From assembly GCA_025055755.1 (NCBI GenBank), contig JANWWF010000012.1, positions 1-42,202 on the forward strand: a stretch of 42,202 nt of DNA. Reading direction: 5' to 3'. The stretch comes from Candidatus Kapaibacterium sp. (GTDB lineage: Bacteria; Bacteroidota; Ignavibacteria; Kapaibacteriales; NICIL-2). Below are positions 26,208-31,755 of the stretch, piece after piece. The first letter of the stretch is position 1. Every line of letters starts with the position of its first letter. A model generated the notes under the pieces. It saw only the letters and a list, made by a program, of their open reading frames with translations. It was not told the origin of the DNA and did no database searches. The position numbers and the translations under genes were made by a program.

Positions 26208-26287
26208 GCATTTTTGCACTCCGAATGCCTCAGTGCTCTTTTGCACGACATACGAAGCTCTTTTGCACGACATGCGAATTCTTGCAC
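26208..26287 (+). repeat. Four GCATTTTTGCAC-like elements, two in a 22-bp tandem repeat, before nuoL
   Basis: Two adjacent 22-bp copies at 26235-26256 and 26257-26278 differ at one base only (A at 26252, G at 26274). Each begins GCTCTTTTGCAC. Related 12-mers flank them: GCATTTTTGCAC at 26208-26219 and GAATTCTTGCAC at 26276-26287. The four element starts are 27, 22 and 19 bp apart. The last copy ends 18 bp before the nuoL ATG. They could be operator sites or multiple promoter-like boxes (compare TAnnTTTGC). Upstream, a weak GTTGC/GCAAC inverted repeat (26130-26149) follows the glycosidase stop. The 179-bp gap contains no gene. Confidence 0.6.
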
Positions 26288-26305: not shown

Positions 26306-28261
26306 ATGGCAGAACTTCTCGGTTTGATTGTTGCATTTCCGCTTCTTGGCTTTGTTCTCATCGGGCTTGGTGGGCGCCGGCTCGGGTCAGAGCGGACAAT
26401 CGGTGCGATTGCATCAGGTGCCGTCGGTGCCAGTTTTCTTGTCGCAGTATGGTTGTTAGCGGAGCTGCTGGCACGTCCTGTCGAAGAGCGAGTACTTACA
26501 CTCCGCCTCTACTCCTGGATTAGCGCTGGCGATTTCGGGGCAGAAATGGCGTGGCGCTTTGATGCGCTGTCGGCCGTGTTTGTGCTGTTTATCACAGGCG
26601 TTGGCTTCCTAATTCACGTGTACGCCATTGGGTACATGCACGGGGATCGCTCCTTCCCCCGATTCTTTGCCTACCTGAACCTGTTTGTCTTCATGATGCT
26701 CAACCTTGTGCTCGGGGATAATCTGCTGGTGACATTTCTCGGCTGGGAAGGAGTAGGGCTTGCTTCATACCTGCTCATCGGCTTTTGGTGGGATCAGCAT
26801 TTCGAGGGAGTGCGCATTCGGTGGACAGGCGATGCAGCAATGAAGGCATTCGTAGTCAACCGCATTGGGGACTTTGGAATGCTGGTGGCAATGTTTCTGC
26901 TGATTCTCTACGCTGGGACACTTCGCTACGAAGAAATCTCGTCTGCTGTAATCGCGGGAAACGTTATTCCCTCGCACGTTGTCACACTCATCGCGCTGGG
27001 ACTATTTCTGGGGTGCACCGGGAAATCCGCTCAGATTCCGCTTGCAGTGTGGCTGCCTGACGCAATGGCAGGACCTACACCGGTTTCTGCTCTCATCCAT
27101 GCGGCGACGATGGTCACCAGCGGCATCTTCCTCATCACACGATTGAATGTGCTGTTTGCTGCCTCGCCAGAGGCAATGGCCGTGGTGGCCGCTGTTGGAA
27201 TTGCCACAGCATTCTTTGCGGCAACGATTGGGCTTGTGCAGAACGACATCAAGAAAGTGCTCGCGTACTCGACAGTGTCGCAATTAGGCTTCATGTTCAC
27301 TGCGTTAGGGGTTGGCGCTTTTACTGCGGGAGTGTTCCACGTCGTTACGCATGCGTTTTTCAAGGCGCTTCTGTTCTTAGGCGCAGGCTCGGTCATCCAT
27401 GCGCTACACCACGAACAAGACATCCAGCGCATGGGAGGGCTTGCCCGCTTTATGCCCCGTACACACTGGACGTTCCTGGTCGGAGCATTAGCAATTGCGG
27501 GCATTTTCCCCTTGAGCGGATTTTTCTCGAAGGACGAAATACTGCTGAACCTCTTTGTCCACGGCGGACCGATTCTCTGGGGCATTGGTGTAGCAGCGGC
27601 ATTCTGCACGGCGTTTTACATGTTCCGGCTCTACTATTTGGTGTTCCACAACACCGAGCGGTTTGACCATCACCATACGCCTCATGAATCGCCTGCAGTG
27701 ATGACAGTCCCCCTGGTAGTGCTGGCGATACTTTCAGCTGTTGGGGGGCTGCTGGGTGTTCCTGCCGCGCTCAGTGGAGGAGCAATCCCGCATATTCTCG
27801 AGCAGTGGCTCGAGCCGGTATTTGCTGCAAGTGCCCAGCTGCTTGCACGAGAGCATGCTCATGTTTCCCATGCCCTGGAGTACACGCTAATGGCCGCATC
27901 GCTGGGGATAGCTGCAATCGGGATTGCGCTGGCAACCGCCTTTTACCGCCGCCCCAGCGATCTACCAAACCGATTGGCAGATCGCTTTCGGTGGCTTTAC
28001 CAAGTGCTCTGGCGGAAGTACTTGGTTGACGAGTTCTACTACGCAACGGTTGTCGATCCCATCTACCGCCTGTCGGTACAGGTGCTGTGGCGCATTACCG
28101 ACGTTGCCATTGTTGACGGCGCGGTCAATGGCATTGCTCGATTGGTTGGTCGGCTGGGCGAGTTGGTGCGCCGCATCCAAACAGGTTATGCGCAGAGCTA
28201 CGCAGTACTGATGCTTATCGGGATTGTGGCAGTGGTGTGGTACTTGGCAACCGGGCAGTAG
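26306..28261 (+). CDS. nuoL: NADH-quinone oxidoreductase subunit L
   Basis: The distal antiporter-like membrane subunit of complex I, contributing to proton translocation. The 651-residue length is normal. It has about 15 or more hydrophobic segments, starting MAELLGLIVAFPLLGFVLIG. Family motifs include FLGWEGVGLASYLLIGFWW with the conserved Glu, CTGKSAQIPLAVWLPDAMAG with the key Lys, PTPVSALIHAATMVTSGIFL, and VLAYSTVSQLGFMFTALGVG. FKALLFLGAGSVIHALHHEQ follows. The C-terminal amphipathic part (KYLVDEFYYATVVDPIYRLS) is specific to NuoL rather than NuoM or NuoN. No other nuo gene adjoins it: the neighbours are a glycosidase gene and a convergent phosphatase gene six bases downstream. Confidence 0.97.
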   Translation: MAELLGLIVAFPLLGFVLIGLGGRRLGSERTIGAIASGAVGASFLVAVWLLAELLARPVEERVLTLRLYSWISAGDFGAEMAWRFDALSAVFVLFITGVGFLIHVYAIGYMHGDRSFPRFFAYLNLFVFMMLNLVLGDNLLVTFLGWEGVGLASYLLIGFWWDQHFEGVRIRWTGDAAMKAFVVNRIGDFGMLVAMFLLILYAGTLRYEEISSAVIAGNVIPSHVVTLIALGLFLGCTGKSAQIPLAVWLPDAMAGPTPVSALIHAATMVTSGIFLITRLNVLFAASPEAMAVVAAVGIATAFFAATIGLVQNDIKKVLAYSTVSQLGFMFTALGVGAFTAGVFHVVTHAFFKALLFLGAGSVIHALHHEQDIQRMGGLARFMPRTHWTFLVGALAIAGIFPLSGFFSKDEILLNLFVHGGPILWGIGVAAAFCTAFYMFRLYYLVFHNTERFDHHHTPHESPAVMTVPLVVLAILSAVGGLLGVPAALSGGAIPHILEQWLEPVFAASAQLLAREHAHVSHALEYTLMAASLGIAAIGIALATAFYRRPSDLPNRLADRFRWLYQVLWRKYLVDEFYYATVVDPIYRLSVQVLWRITDVAIVDGAVNGIARLVGRLGELVRRIQTGYAQSYAVLMLIGIVAVVWYLATGQ

Positions 28262-28267
28262 AGAAGG

Positions 28268-30265
28268 CTATAGCTTGACAAAACGCTCTTGCTCGATTGC
28301 CTCTCCACAGCGCAGCTCGAGAATGTACATGCCGCTCGGAAGATGTGCTAAGGGAAGCGCGATTGTGTGAACGCCATACTCGCGGGGCTGAAGCGAGAGT
28401 GCTTCTACCGTTCGCCCAGTGTTATCGCGAATGACAATCGAGATGCTGCCCTGTTGGCGGCAGAAAAAGCTCACCGTAAGCATGGTGGTAGCCGGCTGGG
28501 GGTACAATGCCAGCGCAATGAGAGGTGAGTCAACAACAGTGCTTGTTACATTCGGTGGGTCTAAGGGCGTTGGGTCTGCAGGGCGTTCTTTCCCGGGTGC
28601 TGGAACAGAAGCAGGCTGTGACCACTGCCTTTGACCGCGAGCGACAGCAAATGCTTTCCCCAAATGCAGAAGAGCTGAGCGTATGCGAACGGTGTCGCTG
28701 ACGTACCACTCCGCTTGTACCTGGTCTGGACGAACGTCAACGAGGACGTAGCCATGCTTTGTCAGATCCCACCATCGCAGATGCAGATTGTTTTTCGCGA
28801 GAGTGCTGTCGAGGGTGCGCAGTACTTCGGCGCGCAAAAAAGCTGGCACTGCGGCAAGATCAAGGATTTCATCAAAGTTCCGCGAAGAAACGCTGGGGGT
28901 CAGTGCTTCGACTGCAACGCTGGGGCGCTGGTCGGAGGGAGAAGCGGTAACGTCGAAGGCAAACGAGCTGTGGAAGTCTCCCGTAAGCACAACGATATCT
29001 TTTGCTGCAGTACGGAAAAACTCAATCAAGCGCTGTTGCTCGGCGGGGTAGTTATTCCAGGAGTCGGTTGTAAAGCGCTGCTCTATCAGGGGGACTGCTG
29101 TAGGGAGCAACAGACGCCCAAATGCCGAAAGCTGAGAAGAATCTATCGGCAAGGGCTTGATAGGGGAGAACATCACCTGGTTGCCGATGAGTATCCACTG
29201 TGCAGGGCTTTGGCGAATGCTTGTTACAAGCCATTCGTACTGTTCCCCTCCGAGCATCGTTCGATTCGGGTCGTTGAGTGAATCAAGCGATGCAGGAGTT
29301 GCCGACGTGCCTACATTCCGCACCTGTTTGTTTCGTGCTTCGTGGCGGGTGTCAAGCATGAGCAGCTCTGCTAAGTCCCCAAAACGGAATGAGCGATACA
29401 AGTGGCGTTGCTCTCGGACGGGAAGCCATTCGTAATATGCCCGCTGAGCAGCACGTTTGCGCTCGTGGTAATCTCCTTCCGAAGGTTGGTGGTTTTCTGC
29501 ACCGTCGGCGTAGGCATCGTTAGCCACTTCGTGATCGTCCCAAACCGCAATCATGGGATGCTGCTGGTGGAGCCGCCGAAGATTCGGATCGAGCCGATAA
29601 ACGGCATACCGCGAACGGTAATCGCTCAGCGTGAGCAGTTCGACGTTTGGTGCCGGAATGCGCTGCGATTGGCGTACCCACGGTTGCGTTGTGTCAGCAG
29701 CGTATTCGTAGATGTAATCGCCCAAGTGAATAACAGCGTCCAGATCATTACGCTCGGCGATATGCTCGTAGGCGTTGAAGTAGCCTGCTGCATAATCGCT
29801 ACAGGAAACAACAGCAAAGCGCAGATGGTTTGCGCGGTCGCGCGGAGCGGTCTTTGTGCGCCCAACAAGCGACCAGCGCCCAAATGCTCGGAAGGCATAG
29901 TAGTAGTAACGGTCTGGCTGGAGACTGTCAACATCTACTTTGACAGTGAAGTCGCGATAGGCAGAGGTGTACGCAATGCCGCGGCGGACAATTTGCTGGA
30001 GAGAAGTATCAAGTGCGACCACCCACTCGACGGCGACAGCAGTATCGAGCGTCGGAGGCGTTACGCGTGTCCAGATAATGACGCGGTCATCGAGTGGATC
30101 GCCGCTGGCAACGCCGTGGTAGAAGGGCCATAAGCGGGGTTCAATTTGGGAAGTTTGCTGCGTGGGTGTTGGGCGGGTCACCGGTTCCCAGTGGATGATA
30201 GGTTGCCACTGCTGCGCAAAGAGAAGAGTACTTGCAACAAGTATGCTGAACCCTACCCACCACAT
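28268..30265 (-). CDS. Secreted PhoD-like phosphatase with T9SS sorting domain
   Basis: I chose the ATG at 30265, which gives MWWVGFSILVASTLLFAQQ, a signal peptide, and 665 residues. An ATG at 30325 lies above a promoter-like box at 30321-30306. An N-terminal beta-sandwich (FYHGVASGDPLDDRVIIWTR, DVDSLQPDRYYYYAFRA) precedes the metallophosphatase core of the PhoD (alkaline phosphatase D) family: FAVVSCSDYAAGYFNAYEHI, IHLGDYIYEYA, AVWDDHEVANDAY, IVVLTGDFHSSFAFD. These supply the expected Asp, Asn and His metal ligands. A linker rich in Pro leads to a C-terminal domain (ALYPQPATTMLTVSF, VIRDNTGRTVEAL, GMYILELRCGE), a T9SS sorting signal. It probably releases phosphate from diesters or monoesters outside the cell. 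No Pho regulator is nearby. Confidence 0.92.
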   Translation of the reverse strand: MWWVGFSILVASTLLFAQQWQPIIHWEPVTRPTPTQQTSQIEPRLWPFYHGVASGDPLDDRVIIWTRVTPPTLDTAVAVEWVVALDTSLQQIVRRGIAYTSAYRDFTVKVDVDSLQPDRYYYYAFRAFGRWSLVGRTKTAPRDRANHLRFAVVSCSDYAAGYFNAYEHIAERNDLDAVIHLGDYIYEYAADTTQPWVRQSQRIPAPNVELLTLSDYRSRYAVYRLDPNLRRLHQQHPMIAVWDDHEVANDAYADGAENHQPSEGDYHERKRAAQRAYYEWLPVREQRHLYRSFRFGDLAELLMLDTRHEARNKQVRNVGTSATPASLDSLNDPNRTMLGGEQYEWLVTSIRQSPAQWILIGNQVMFSPIKPLPIDSSQLSAFGRLLLPTAVPLIEQRFTTDSWNNYPAEQQRLIEFFRTAAKDIVVLTGDFHSSFAFDVTASPSDQRPSVAVEALTPSVSSRNFDEILDLAAVPAFLRAEVLRTLDSTLAKNNLHLRWWDLTKHGYVLVDVRPDQVQAEWYVSDTVRIRSALLHLGKAFAVARGQRQWSQPASVPAPGKERPADPTPLDPPNVTSTVVDSPLIALALYPQPATTMLTVSFFCRQQGSISIVIRDNTGRTVEALSLQPREYGVHTIALPLAHLPSGMYILELRCGEAIEQERFVKL

Positions 30266-30305
30266 CGTCGCCCACGTAGTTGTGAAACACTCAACGCATT
30301 CTGTA

Positions 30306-30321
30306 TGCGAAAATGCAGTGC
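30306..30321 (-). promoter_or_regulatory. GCACTGCAT element, phoD-like side of the divergent region
   Basis: On the reverse strand 30321-30306 reads GCACTGCATTTTCGCA. It matches 14 of 16 bases of the element at 30383-30398 on the other strand and contains CATTTTCG, a degenerate -7 box. It ends 40 bp before the chosen ATG at 30265. A promoter or shared regulator site is inferred. Confidence 0.4.
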
Positions 30322-30382
30322 ACATGTCACCCCTATGTTGCGAGGGTGTTACCTGTTTATCACCACGGATGTTGGCGCTGTC

Positions 30383-30398
30383 GCACTGCATATTTGCA
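30383..30398 (+). promoter_or_regulatory. GCACTGCAT element, nfeD side of the divergent region
   Basis: GCACTGCATATTTGCA contains CATATTTG, one mismatch from TAnnTTTG, and ends 22 bp before the nfeD ATG at 30421. Its first nine bases are a perfect inverted copy of 30313-30321. The extended GCATATTTGCAC (30388-30399) differs at one base from the GCATTTTTGCAC upstream of nuoL. Confidence 0.42.
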
Positions 30399-30420
30399 CG
30401 CATGTTGCAAGAAGCTGTCC

Positions 30421-31755
30421 ATGAGGCTACAACGCACACGAACCGTCATTGGGACCTTCCTGACACTTCTGGCAGCAGGATTTTCCACCAATGCGGTATC
30501 GCAAAGTAGCGTGGTTGTTGCTGCTATCGATGGGGTCATCAATCCGATGACAGCAACATACCTTGACCGCACTCTTGCTCGAGCGCGTGAGCTGGGAGCA
30601 GAGTGTGTTATCATCGAGCTAAACACTCCCGGTGGATTGGATCGGTCTATGCGCGATATGGTGCAGTCGTTGCTCAATAGCACCGTTCCGACGGTGGTGT
30701 ACGTTACTCCAGCGGGGGCGCGAGCAGCATCGGCGGGAGTGTTCATCACAATGGCAGCGCATGTAGCTGCGATGGCACCAGGTACGAACATCGGTGCTGC
30801 ACATCCTGTTGCCCTCGGCGAAGGAGGGATGGACTCAGTGATGGAGCAGAAGGTCACCAACGACGCCGTTGCGTTCATTCGCTCTATTGCGCAAGTGCGC
30901 CAGCGCAACGTGCGATGGGCAGAAGAAGCAGTTCGGCGAAGTGTGTCCCTGACAGCGCAAGAAGCGCTCGACAGCAATGTTATCAACCTGATTGCTCGCG
31001 ACCGGGGCGACCTCCTTGCGAAGCTGCGTGGGCGAACTATCCGAACAGCAGCAGGGGAGCGAACGCTCCGGCTAGACAATCCCCAAATCGTCGAAGTCGA
31101 GATGACCGTGCTCGAAAAATTCCTCCACACGATCACCGATCCCAACATTGCCTTGCTGCTGCTTTCGCTGGGTTTTCTGGCAATCGTGATCGAGTTCTAC
31201 ACACCGGGTACATTTGGTCCCGCAATAGCAGGAGTCATCTTGCTGATTTTGGGCTTTATGGCAACAGGAAGCTTGCCAATCAACTGGGCGGGGATACTGC
31301 TGATTGTGTTGGCAGCAATTTTACTGGCTATCGAGCTGTACACACCAACGGTCGGTGTTTTTGCGATCGGTTCGGCGGTTGCATTTACCGTCGGAGCATT
31401 GCTTTTGTTTTCGCCCTCCACCCCGCCATCGCCTTCGATGCCCGCTGTCTCGGTCAGTGGATGGCTTGTGGCGCTGATTGCTGTTCTATTTGCCCTGGTT
31501 GGGCTGGTCATCGCACGGGCAGCAGTAGGTGTGCACCGCAGCCGTCCGCGCAGTGGGGTAGAGGCGCTCATCGGTGCAGAAGGAATTGCACGTACCAATC
31601 TTGCACCAATCGGCACCGTCTTTGTTCGCAGCGAAGAGTGGAGTGCTGAAAATGTTGGACCTACGCCAATTGCTGCAGGCGATCCTATCATCGTCGTAGG
31701 GGCGGAAGGAAGTGTGCTCCGTGTCGAGCGCAAGCCTCTTGCGACCGATTCTTGA
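30421..31755 (+). CDS. NfeD family membrane-bound serine protease (long form)
   Basis: The ATG at 30421 gives 444 residues with a signal peptide (MRLQRTRTVIGTFLTLLAAG). The ClpP-like protease domain has AIDGVINPMTATYLDRTL, CVIIELNTPGGLDRSM, and Ser104 in RAASAGVFITMAA. Lys144 in MEQKVTNDA is 40 residues on, matching the Ser/Lys dyad spacing of the archaeal homologue PH1510 (Ser97/Lys138). Four or five membrane helices follow (about 235-375: FLAIVIEFYTPGTFGPAIAG, GILLIVLAAILLAIELYTP). The C-terminal OB-fold NfeD domain has GVEALIGAEGIARTNLAPIG and GDPIIVVGAEG. Long NfeD proteins cut the C-terminus of stomatin-like partners, and the next gene encodes one. Confidence 0.95.
   Translation: MRLQRTRTVIGTFLTLLAAGFSTNAVSQSSVVVAAIDGVINPMTATYLDRTLARARELGAECVIIELNTPGGLDRSMRDMVQSLLNSTVPTVVYVTPAGARAASAGVFITMAAHVAAMAPGTNIGAAHPVALGEGGMDSVMEQKVTNDAVAFIRSIAQVRQRNVRWAEEAVRRSVSLTAQEALDSNVINLIARDRGDLLAKLRGRTIRTAAGERTLRLDNPQIVEVEMTVLEKFLHTITDPNIALLLLSLGFLAIVIEFYTPGTFGPAIAGVILLILGFMATGSLPINWAGILLIVLAAILLAIELYTPTVGVFAIGSAVAFTVGALLLFSPSTPPSPSMPAVSVSGWLVALIAVLFALVGLVIARAAVGVHRSRPRSGVEALIGAEGIARTNLAPIGTVFVRSEEWSAENVGPTPIAAGDPIIVVGAEGSVLRVERKPLATDS

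Follow-up and report, generated by a model that had tools for sequence, protein, structure and literature searches.

Our analysis indicates that two mirror-image 16-mers, found between a phosphatase gene and nfeD in an uncultured Kapabacteria-lineage genome, are most likely two divergent, back-to-back housekeeping promoters rather than a switch under a single common regulator. We put the probability of this reading at roughly 0.8. Both elements lie in the window, that is, the whole stretch of 42,202 nucleotides that was analysed, and their boxes are ~73 bp apart. In each of the cores GCATATTTGCA and GCATTTTCGCA there would be a -7 box whose T at -12 is replaced by C, and both boxes would be read by a Bacteroidota-type primary sigma factor of the host. 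RNA polymerase bound at the plus box would begin transcribing nfeD near 30401, giving a leader of ~20 nt; bound at the minus box, it would begin on the phosphatase gene near 30303, giving a leader of ~38 nt. These start sites, and the activity of the two particular copies, are predictions from the DNA sequence. On this reading the mirror-image pair would need no new regulator. The features concerned are as follows.

26208-26218, plus strand: GCATTTTTGCA before nuoL, a -7 box of the kind predicted below (at 26209-26216), 87 nt 5′ of the start codon
26306-28261, plus strand: nuoL, NADH:quinone oxidoreductase subunit L (Pfam PF00361, PF00662)
28268-30265, minus strand: PhoD-like phosphatase with a Por secretion (type IX) C-terminal tail (Pfam PF09423, PF16655, PF18962)
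30266-30420, no strand: divergent intergenic region of 155 bp holding both predicted promoters, from the phosphatase ATG at 30265 (minus) to the nfeD ATG at 30421 (plus)
30306-30321, minus strand: minus 16-mer GCACTGCATTTTCGCA, read directly
30308-30315, minus strand: putative -7 box for the phosphatase gene, CATTTTCG, the weaker of the two, with two departures from TAnnTTTG (motif statistics)
30383-30398, plus strand: plus 16-mer GCACTGCATATTTGCA, read directly
30389-30396, plus strand: putative -7 box for nfeD, CATATTTG, the C variant of TAnnTTTG (motif statistics)
30421-31755, plus strand: nfeD, an NfeD1b-type protein (Pfam PF25145, PF24961, PF01957)

Among named loci, those nearest to the phosphatase belong to the MAGs Chlorobiota bacterium SKW269 (73% identity) and Candidatus Kapabacteria bacterium KatS3mg039 (72%).

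Direct reading of the window found both copies where the sequence-only reading had placed them, GCACTGCATATTTGCA at 30383-30398 on the plus strand and GCACTGCATTTTCGCA at 30321-30306 on the minus strand. Their agreement at 14 of 16 positions and their outward orientation towards both genes were also described correctly, as was the match at 11 of 12 bases between GCATATTTGCAC of the plus copy (30388-30399) and GCATTTTTGCAC before nuoL (26208-26219). When the 155-bp gap was shuffled with its dinucleotides preserved, the best outward 16-mer pair agreed at 14 or more of 16 positions in 1 of 400 shuffles; for comparison, the top outward pairs of 28 further divergent gaps (100-220 bp) from the genome sample scored 9-13. 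The pair is above chance, by a figure that applies to one single gap among the many that were read. Without mismatch, the pattern occurs at only these two places in the whole genome; a scan of the window allowing up to 3 mismatches gave 3 matches versus 2.07 expected. Much of the 14/16 agreement arises because both copies are the same kind of -7 box; when 30 unrelated boxes of the sample were lengthened to 16 bases and compared, 3 of their 435 pairs likewise agreed at 14 or more positions. The remaining 5′ letters, GCACT, look like an accidental likeness that probably arose by chance. A local inverted duplication was rejected on inspection, as the flanks outside the 16 bases disagree.

The sequence-only reading had offered two explanations: an extended promoter form, or operators of one regulator acting on the phosphatase, nfeD and nuoL. 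The agreement of the two copies within one gap speaks for the operators, as do the core TGCATATTTGCA, which by inspection is partly palindromic, and TGCAnnnnTGCA, which is commoner upstream than in coding DNA. Matches to the 16-mer elsewhere tell against them. With up to 2 mismatches, the 835-kb sample holds 10 matches, namely the two of the finding, seven in coding DNA and one other in non-coding DNA; 7 of the 8 others are thus coding, and the 16-mer as a whole shows no non-coding enrichment in this sample. A reversed-pattern control (19 matches versus 1) was set aside as misleading, since dinucleotide shuffles of the sample gave 1-6 matches against those 10. The strict 11-base core behaves differently. 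GCATWTTTGCA has 8 occurrences in the genome, every one intergenic and in the sense orientation, 22-87 nt 5′ of a gene start, and the wider form GCAWWTTYGCA gave 22 rows, 14 intergenic and 8 coding. Because near-matches to the 16-mer are mostly coding whereas the strict core is entirely intergenic, we locate the signal in the core and not in the extension. The enrichment proposed as a check was found for the core, upstream and between genes, and was lacking for the full 16-mer in the sample. The core also precedes ald-like, isomerase-like and other genes (named by reading their translations) as well as tRNA-Ser, with no common theme, which further argues against an operator.

To which kind of promoter the core belongs is suggested by the upstream DNA of the genome at large. 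The sample consisted of 40 genome stretches plus the window (834,780 bases), in which 644 genes were called by a simple hexamer method. Of its upstream regions of at least 60 bp, 226 were examined, or 224 (112 tandem and 112 divergent-side) once the target gap was left out. In the first half of the sample, the strongest upstream words were forms of GTATTTTTGC. TAnnTTTG, the known -7 box of Bacteroidota as given in excerpts of PMC7366714, PMC6847099 and PMC9723704 and placed at -12 to -5 in an excerpt of the last, occurred 34 times in sense and 5 times in antisense in the tandem regions (binomial P 2e-6) and 41 times in the divergent-side regions without the target gap. Its density was 1.9-2.2 per kb upstream versus 0.12 per kb in coding DNA. 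A YAnnTTYG box was also present within 80 nt upstream of 14 of the 19 tRNA/tmRNA genes of the sample (L108-L147). The fuller form GTAWWTTYGC was found 25 times versus 0.13 expected in the 224 regions, the base at -6 being T in 16 cases and C, as in the minus copy, in 9.

In the same 224 regions the C form GCAWWTTYGC was found 5 times versus 0.48 expected (Poisson P 1.4e-4), while a substitution scan of the first T of GTAWWTTYGC gave 3 versus 0.57 expected for G and 1 versus 0.46 for A. C is the best-tolerated change at -12, yet it is clearly weaker than T, with enrichment dropping from ~198-fold to ~10-fold. The likeliest identity of the 11-base core GCAWWTTYGCA is a TAnnTTTG box, the -7 box of Bacteroidota-type housekeeping promoters, in which C replaces T at -12.

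Neither copy has the strict TAnnTTTG: the plus box CATATTTG departs from it at one position and the minus box CATTTTCG at two. The description of both as working like a housekeeping promoter stands despite this, because the C form is itself enriched ~10-fold upstream. The second departure of the minus box makes its end TTCG, and CAnnTTCG taken alone showed no upstream enrichment (3 sense and 7 antisense in the tandem regions). The two divergent promoters probably work like the known type in a slightly unusual form. Their non-canonical boxes, above all the minus box with its two departures, would also suit a chance similarity without function, the real promoters lying elsewhere in the gap. We consider this very improbable, since the gap has no other YAnnTTYG box on either strand, all eight strict C forms of the genome precede genes, and a box stands before nfeD in all three relatives with upstream DNA.

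Those relatives were among five genomes of the same genus (G001-G005); L028 and L029, which were taken to be the same genomes as G003 and G005 because their upstream sequences are identical, were counted once. In both G001 and G004, nfeD directly follows nuoL and has TAAATTTG on its 5′ side, and in G002 GCATTTTTGCA takes this place. The contig of G003 starts inside nfeD, and G005 gave no match to the gene. The phosphatase is present in G003 and G005 with different upstream DNA; in G005, CAATTTTG lies 40 nt 5′ of the start, and in G003 a standard box is lacking and the sequence there resembles TGATTTTCGC. Upstream of nuoL no box was found in G001, G003, G004 or G005, and the one in G002 is at -18. 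The orthologous nfeD and phosphatase promoters that were read lack GCACT in front of the box, and no relative with readable upstream DNA showed the divergent pair. Since neither the nuoL box nor GCACT is kept, we regard the promoters as local, with no conserved site common to the three genes.

These comparisons bear on both explanations offered earlier. For operators of one regulator, the motif would be looked for before the orthologs of all three genes; at nuoL it is absent in four genomes of five and displaced in the fifth, and the 5′ extension is missing from the orthologous promoters. Together with the coding location of most 16-mer matches, this led us to reject the shared regulator, to which we assign only a very small probability. 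Of the extended promoter form, the promoter part holds for the 11-base core, given its intergenic enrichment, sense orientation, short distance to genes and position before a tRNA gene in relatives. The extension with GCACT was discarded, as other boxes and the orthologs do without it.

The gene order at this spot also differs among relatives. Here the phosphatase gene, on the minus strand, sits between nuoL and nfeD (26306-31755), whereas nuoL and nfeD adjoin in G001 and G004. This points to a possible gene gain or loss at the nuoL-nfeD spot. The phosphatase of G005 still adjoins nuoL.

The housekeeping reading may be refined by the behavior of the C form at single genes. In G001, G002, G004 and G005, CATTTTTG is the sole box within 80 nt of tRNA-Ser(UGA), 8-9 nt from the 5′ end of the tRNA, a spacing that bears on the predicted start 5 nt past the box. 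The same tRNA gene in the genome under study (G000) has the C form CATATTTG at 15 nt and TAATTTTG further upstream. The strongest support for the C form being a promoter box in its own right comes from this placement. In addition, 5 of the 8 C-form genes of G000 have the C form before their ortholog in one to four relatives of the same genus, 14 pairs in all by tblastn (L170, L173, L185, L186, L189 and L190 near 1500; L246-L277 in the relatives). L172 was left out of the C list, as the matched site belongs to L173. In the relatives, 32 C-form loci were compared with 12 T-form genes, and none of these genes gave a match; this test began with 20 loci, of which 8 without a clear protein gene, several of them preceding tRNAs, were left out. 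In the reverse comparison, limited to 30 of the sites in the relatives, no C-form gene turned up. Taken together, this suggests conservation of the C at -12, possibly a sign of nothing beyond selection on an adequate promoter.

One could go further and take the C-at-minus-12 boxes as a distinct conserved promoter class, recognized by this primary sigma factor or by a different one, or overlapping the site of a regulator, with both copies as members. This would refine the housekeeping reading and is not exclusive of it. The 14 orthologous pairs and the lack of T-form matches favor such a class, but purifying selection on a working promoter would equally keep the base, and the reverse comparison was small. 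Moreover, one member is a tRNA promoter, as is often the case for the T form, and the phosphatase box deviates from the strict form. We consider membership of both copies in a distinct class unlikely. Also unlikely is the proposal that GCATWTTTGCA promoters form a conserved class in this Kapabacteria genus, with the C retained from species to species at the ald-like gene, tRNA-Ser(UGA), the isomerase-like gene, nfeD and one further gene. Such promoters might represent a -7 form fixed at low strength or regulated conditionally, including at nfeD, the phosphatase and nuoL.

A sigma factor suited to such boxes is encoded in the genome. Twelve matches to sigma-70 region 2 were found, and one, on L279, was scanned with Pfam. 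Its protein of 287 aa is a primary-type sigma factor with regions 1.2, 2, 3 and 4 and no match to region 1.1. Among solved structures it is closest to SigA and RpoD chains, and the sequence presumably resembles the SigA proteins of Bacteroidota. An excerpt of PMC6847099 likewise describes the Bacteroidota primary sigma factor as being without region 1.1.

Overall, the system shares with the primary-sigma promoters of Bacteroidota (-7 TAnnTTTG and -33 TTTG; sigma-ABfr type) a TA/CAnnTTYG core in the sense orientation at short distance from genes and tRNAs, as well as the short primary-type sigma factor. It differs in the C at -12, with a further C at -6 in the minus copy, whereas T at -12 is nearly invariant in Flavobacterium johnsoniae according to an excerpt of PMC6847099. 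In this genome the box also tends to be preceded by G and followed by C (GTAWWTTYGC), and no -33 element was detectable, as neither TTG nor TTTG was enriched at any spacing over 61 sites. According to PMC7366714, a -33 element was likewise not identified in F. johnsoniae. The host belongs to the Kapabacteria/Chlorobiota lineage, while the known promoters are from Bacteroidota proper. The SM1-SM3 motifs of Flavobacterium psychrophilum likewise vary around TAnnTTTG and have been assigned to the primary sigma factor (PMC9723704). They were compared through excerpts of the text description, which make no mention of C at -12.

An uncultured genome of the Kapabacteria lineage thus carries the Bacteroidota-type -7 box together with a matching short sigma factor, which should be useful for start-site prediction and expression tools in this group. 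Our literature search on Kapabacteria promoters and transcription starts found no title on the subject, which is not proof that it is unpublished, and a search on Chlorobaculum start sites found nothing useful.

The DNA upstream of nuoL also contains repeats. Between the GCATTTTTGCA box and nuoL, the 22-nt unit GCTCTTTTGCACGACATACGAA is present in two tandem copies that are 95% alike (26235-26278). No such tandem unit was seen 5′ of nuoL in the five genomes of the same genus; in G002 (L157), short imperfect repeats with units like GTGAAACGTCGGCATGACG fill the region 5′ of the gene.
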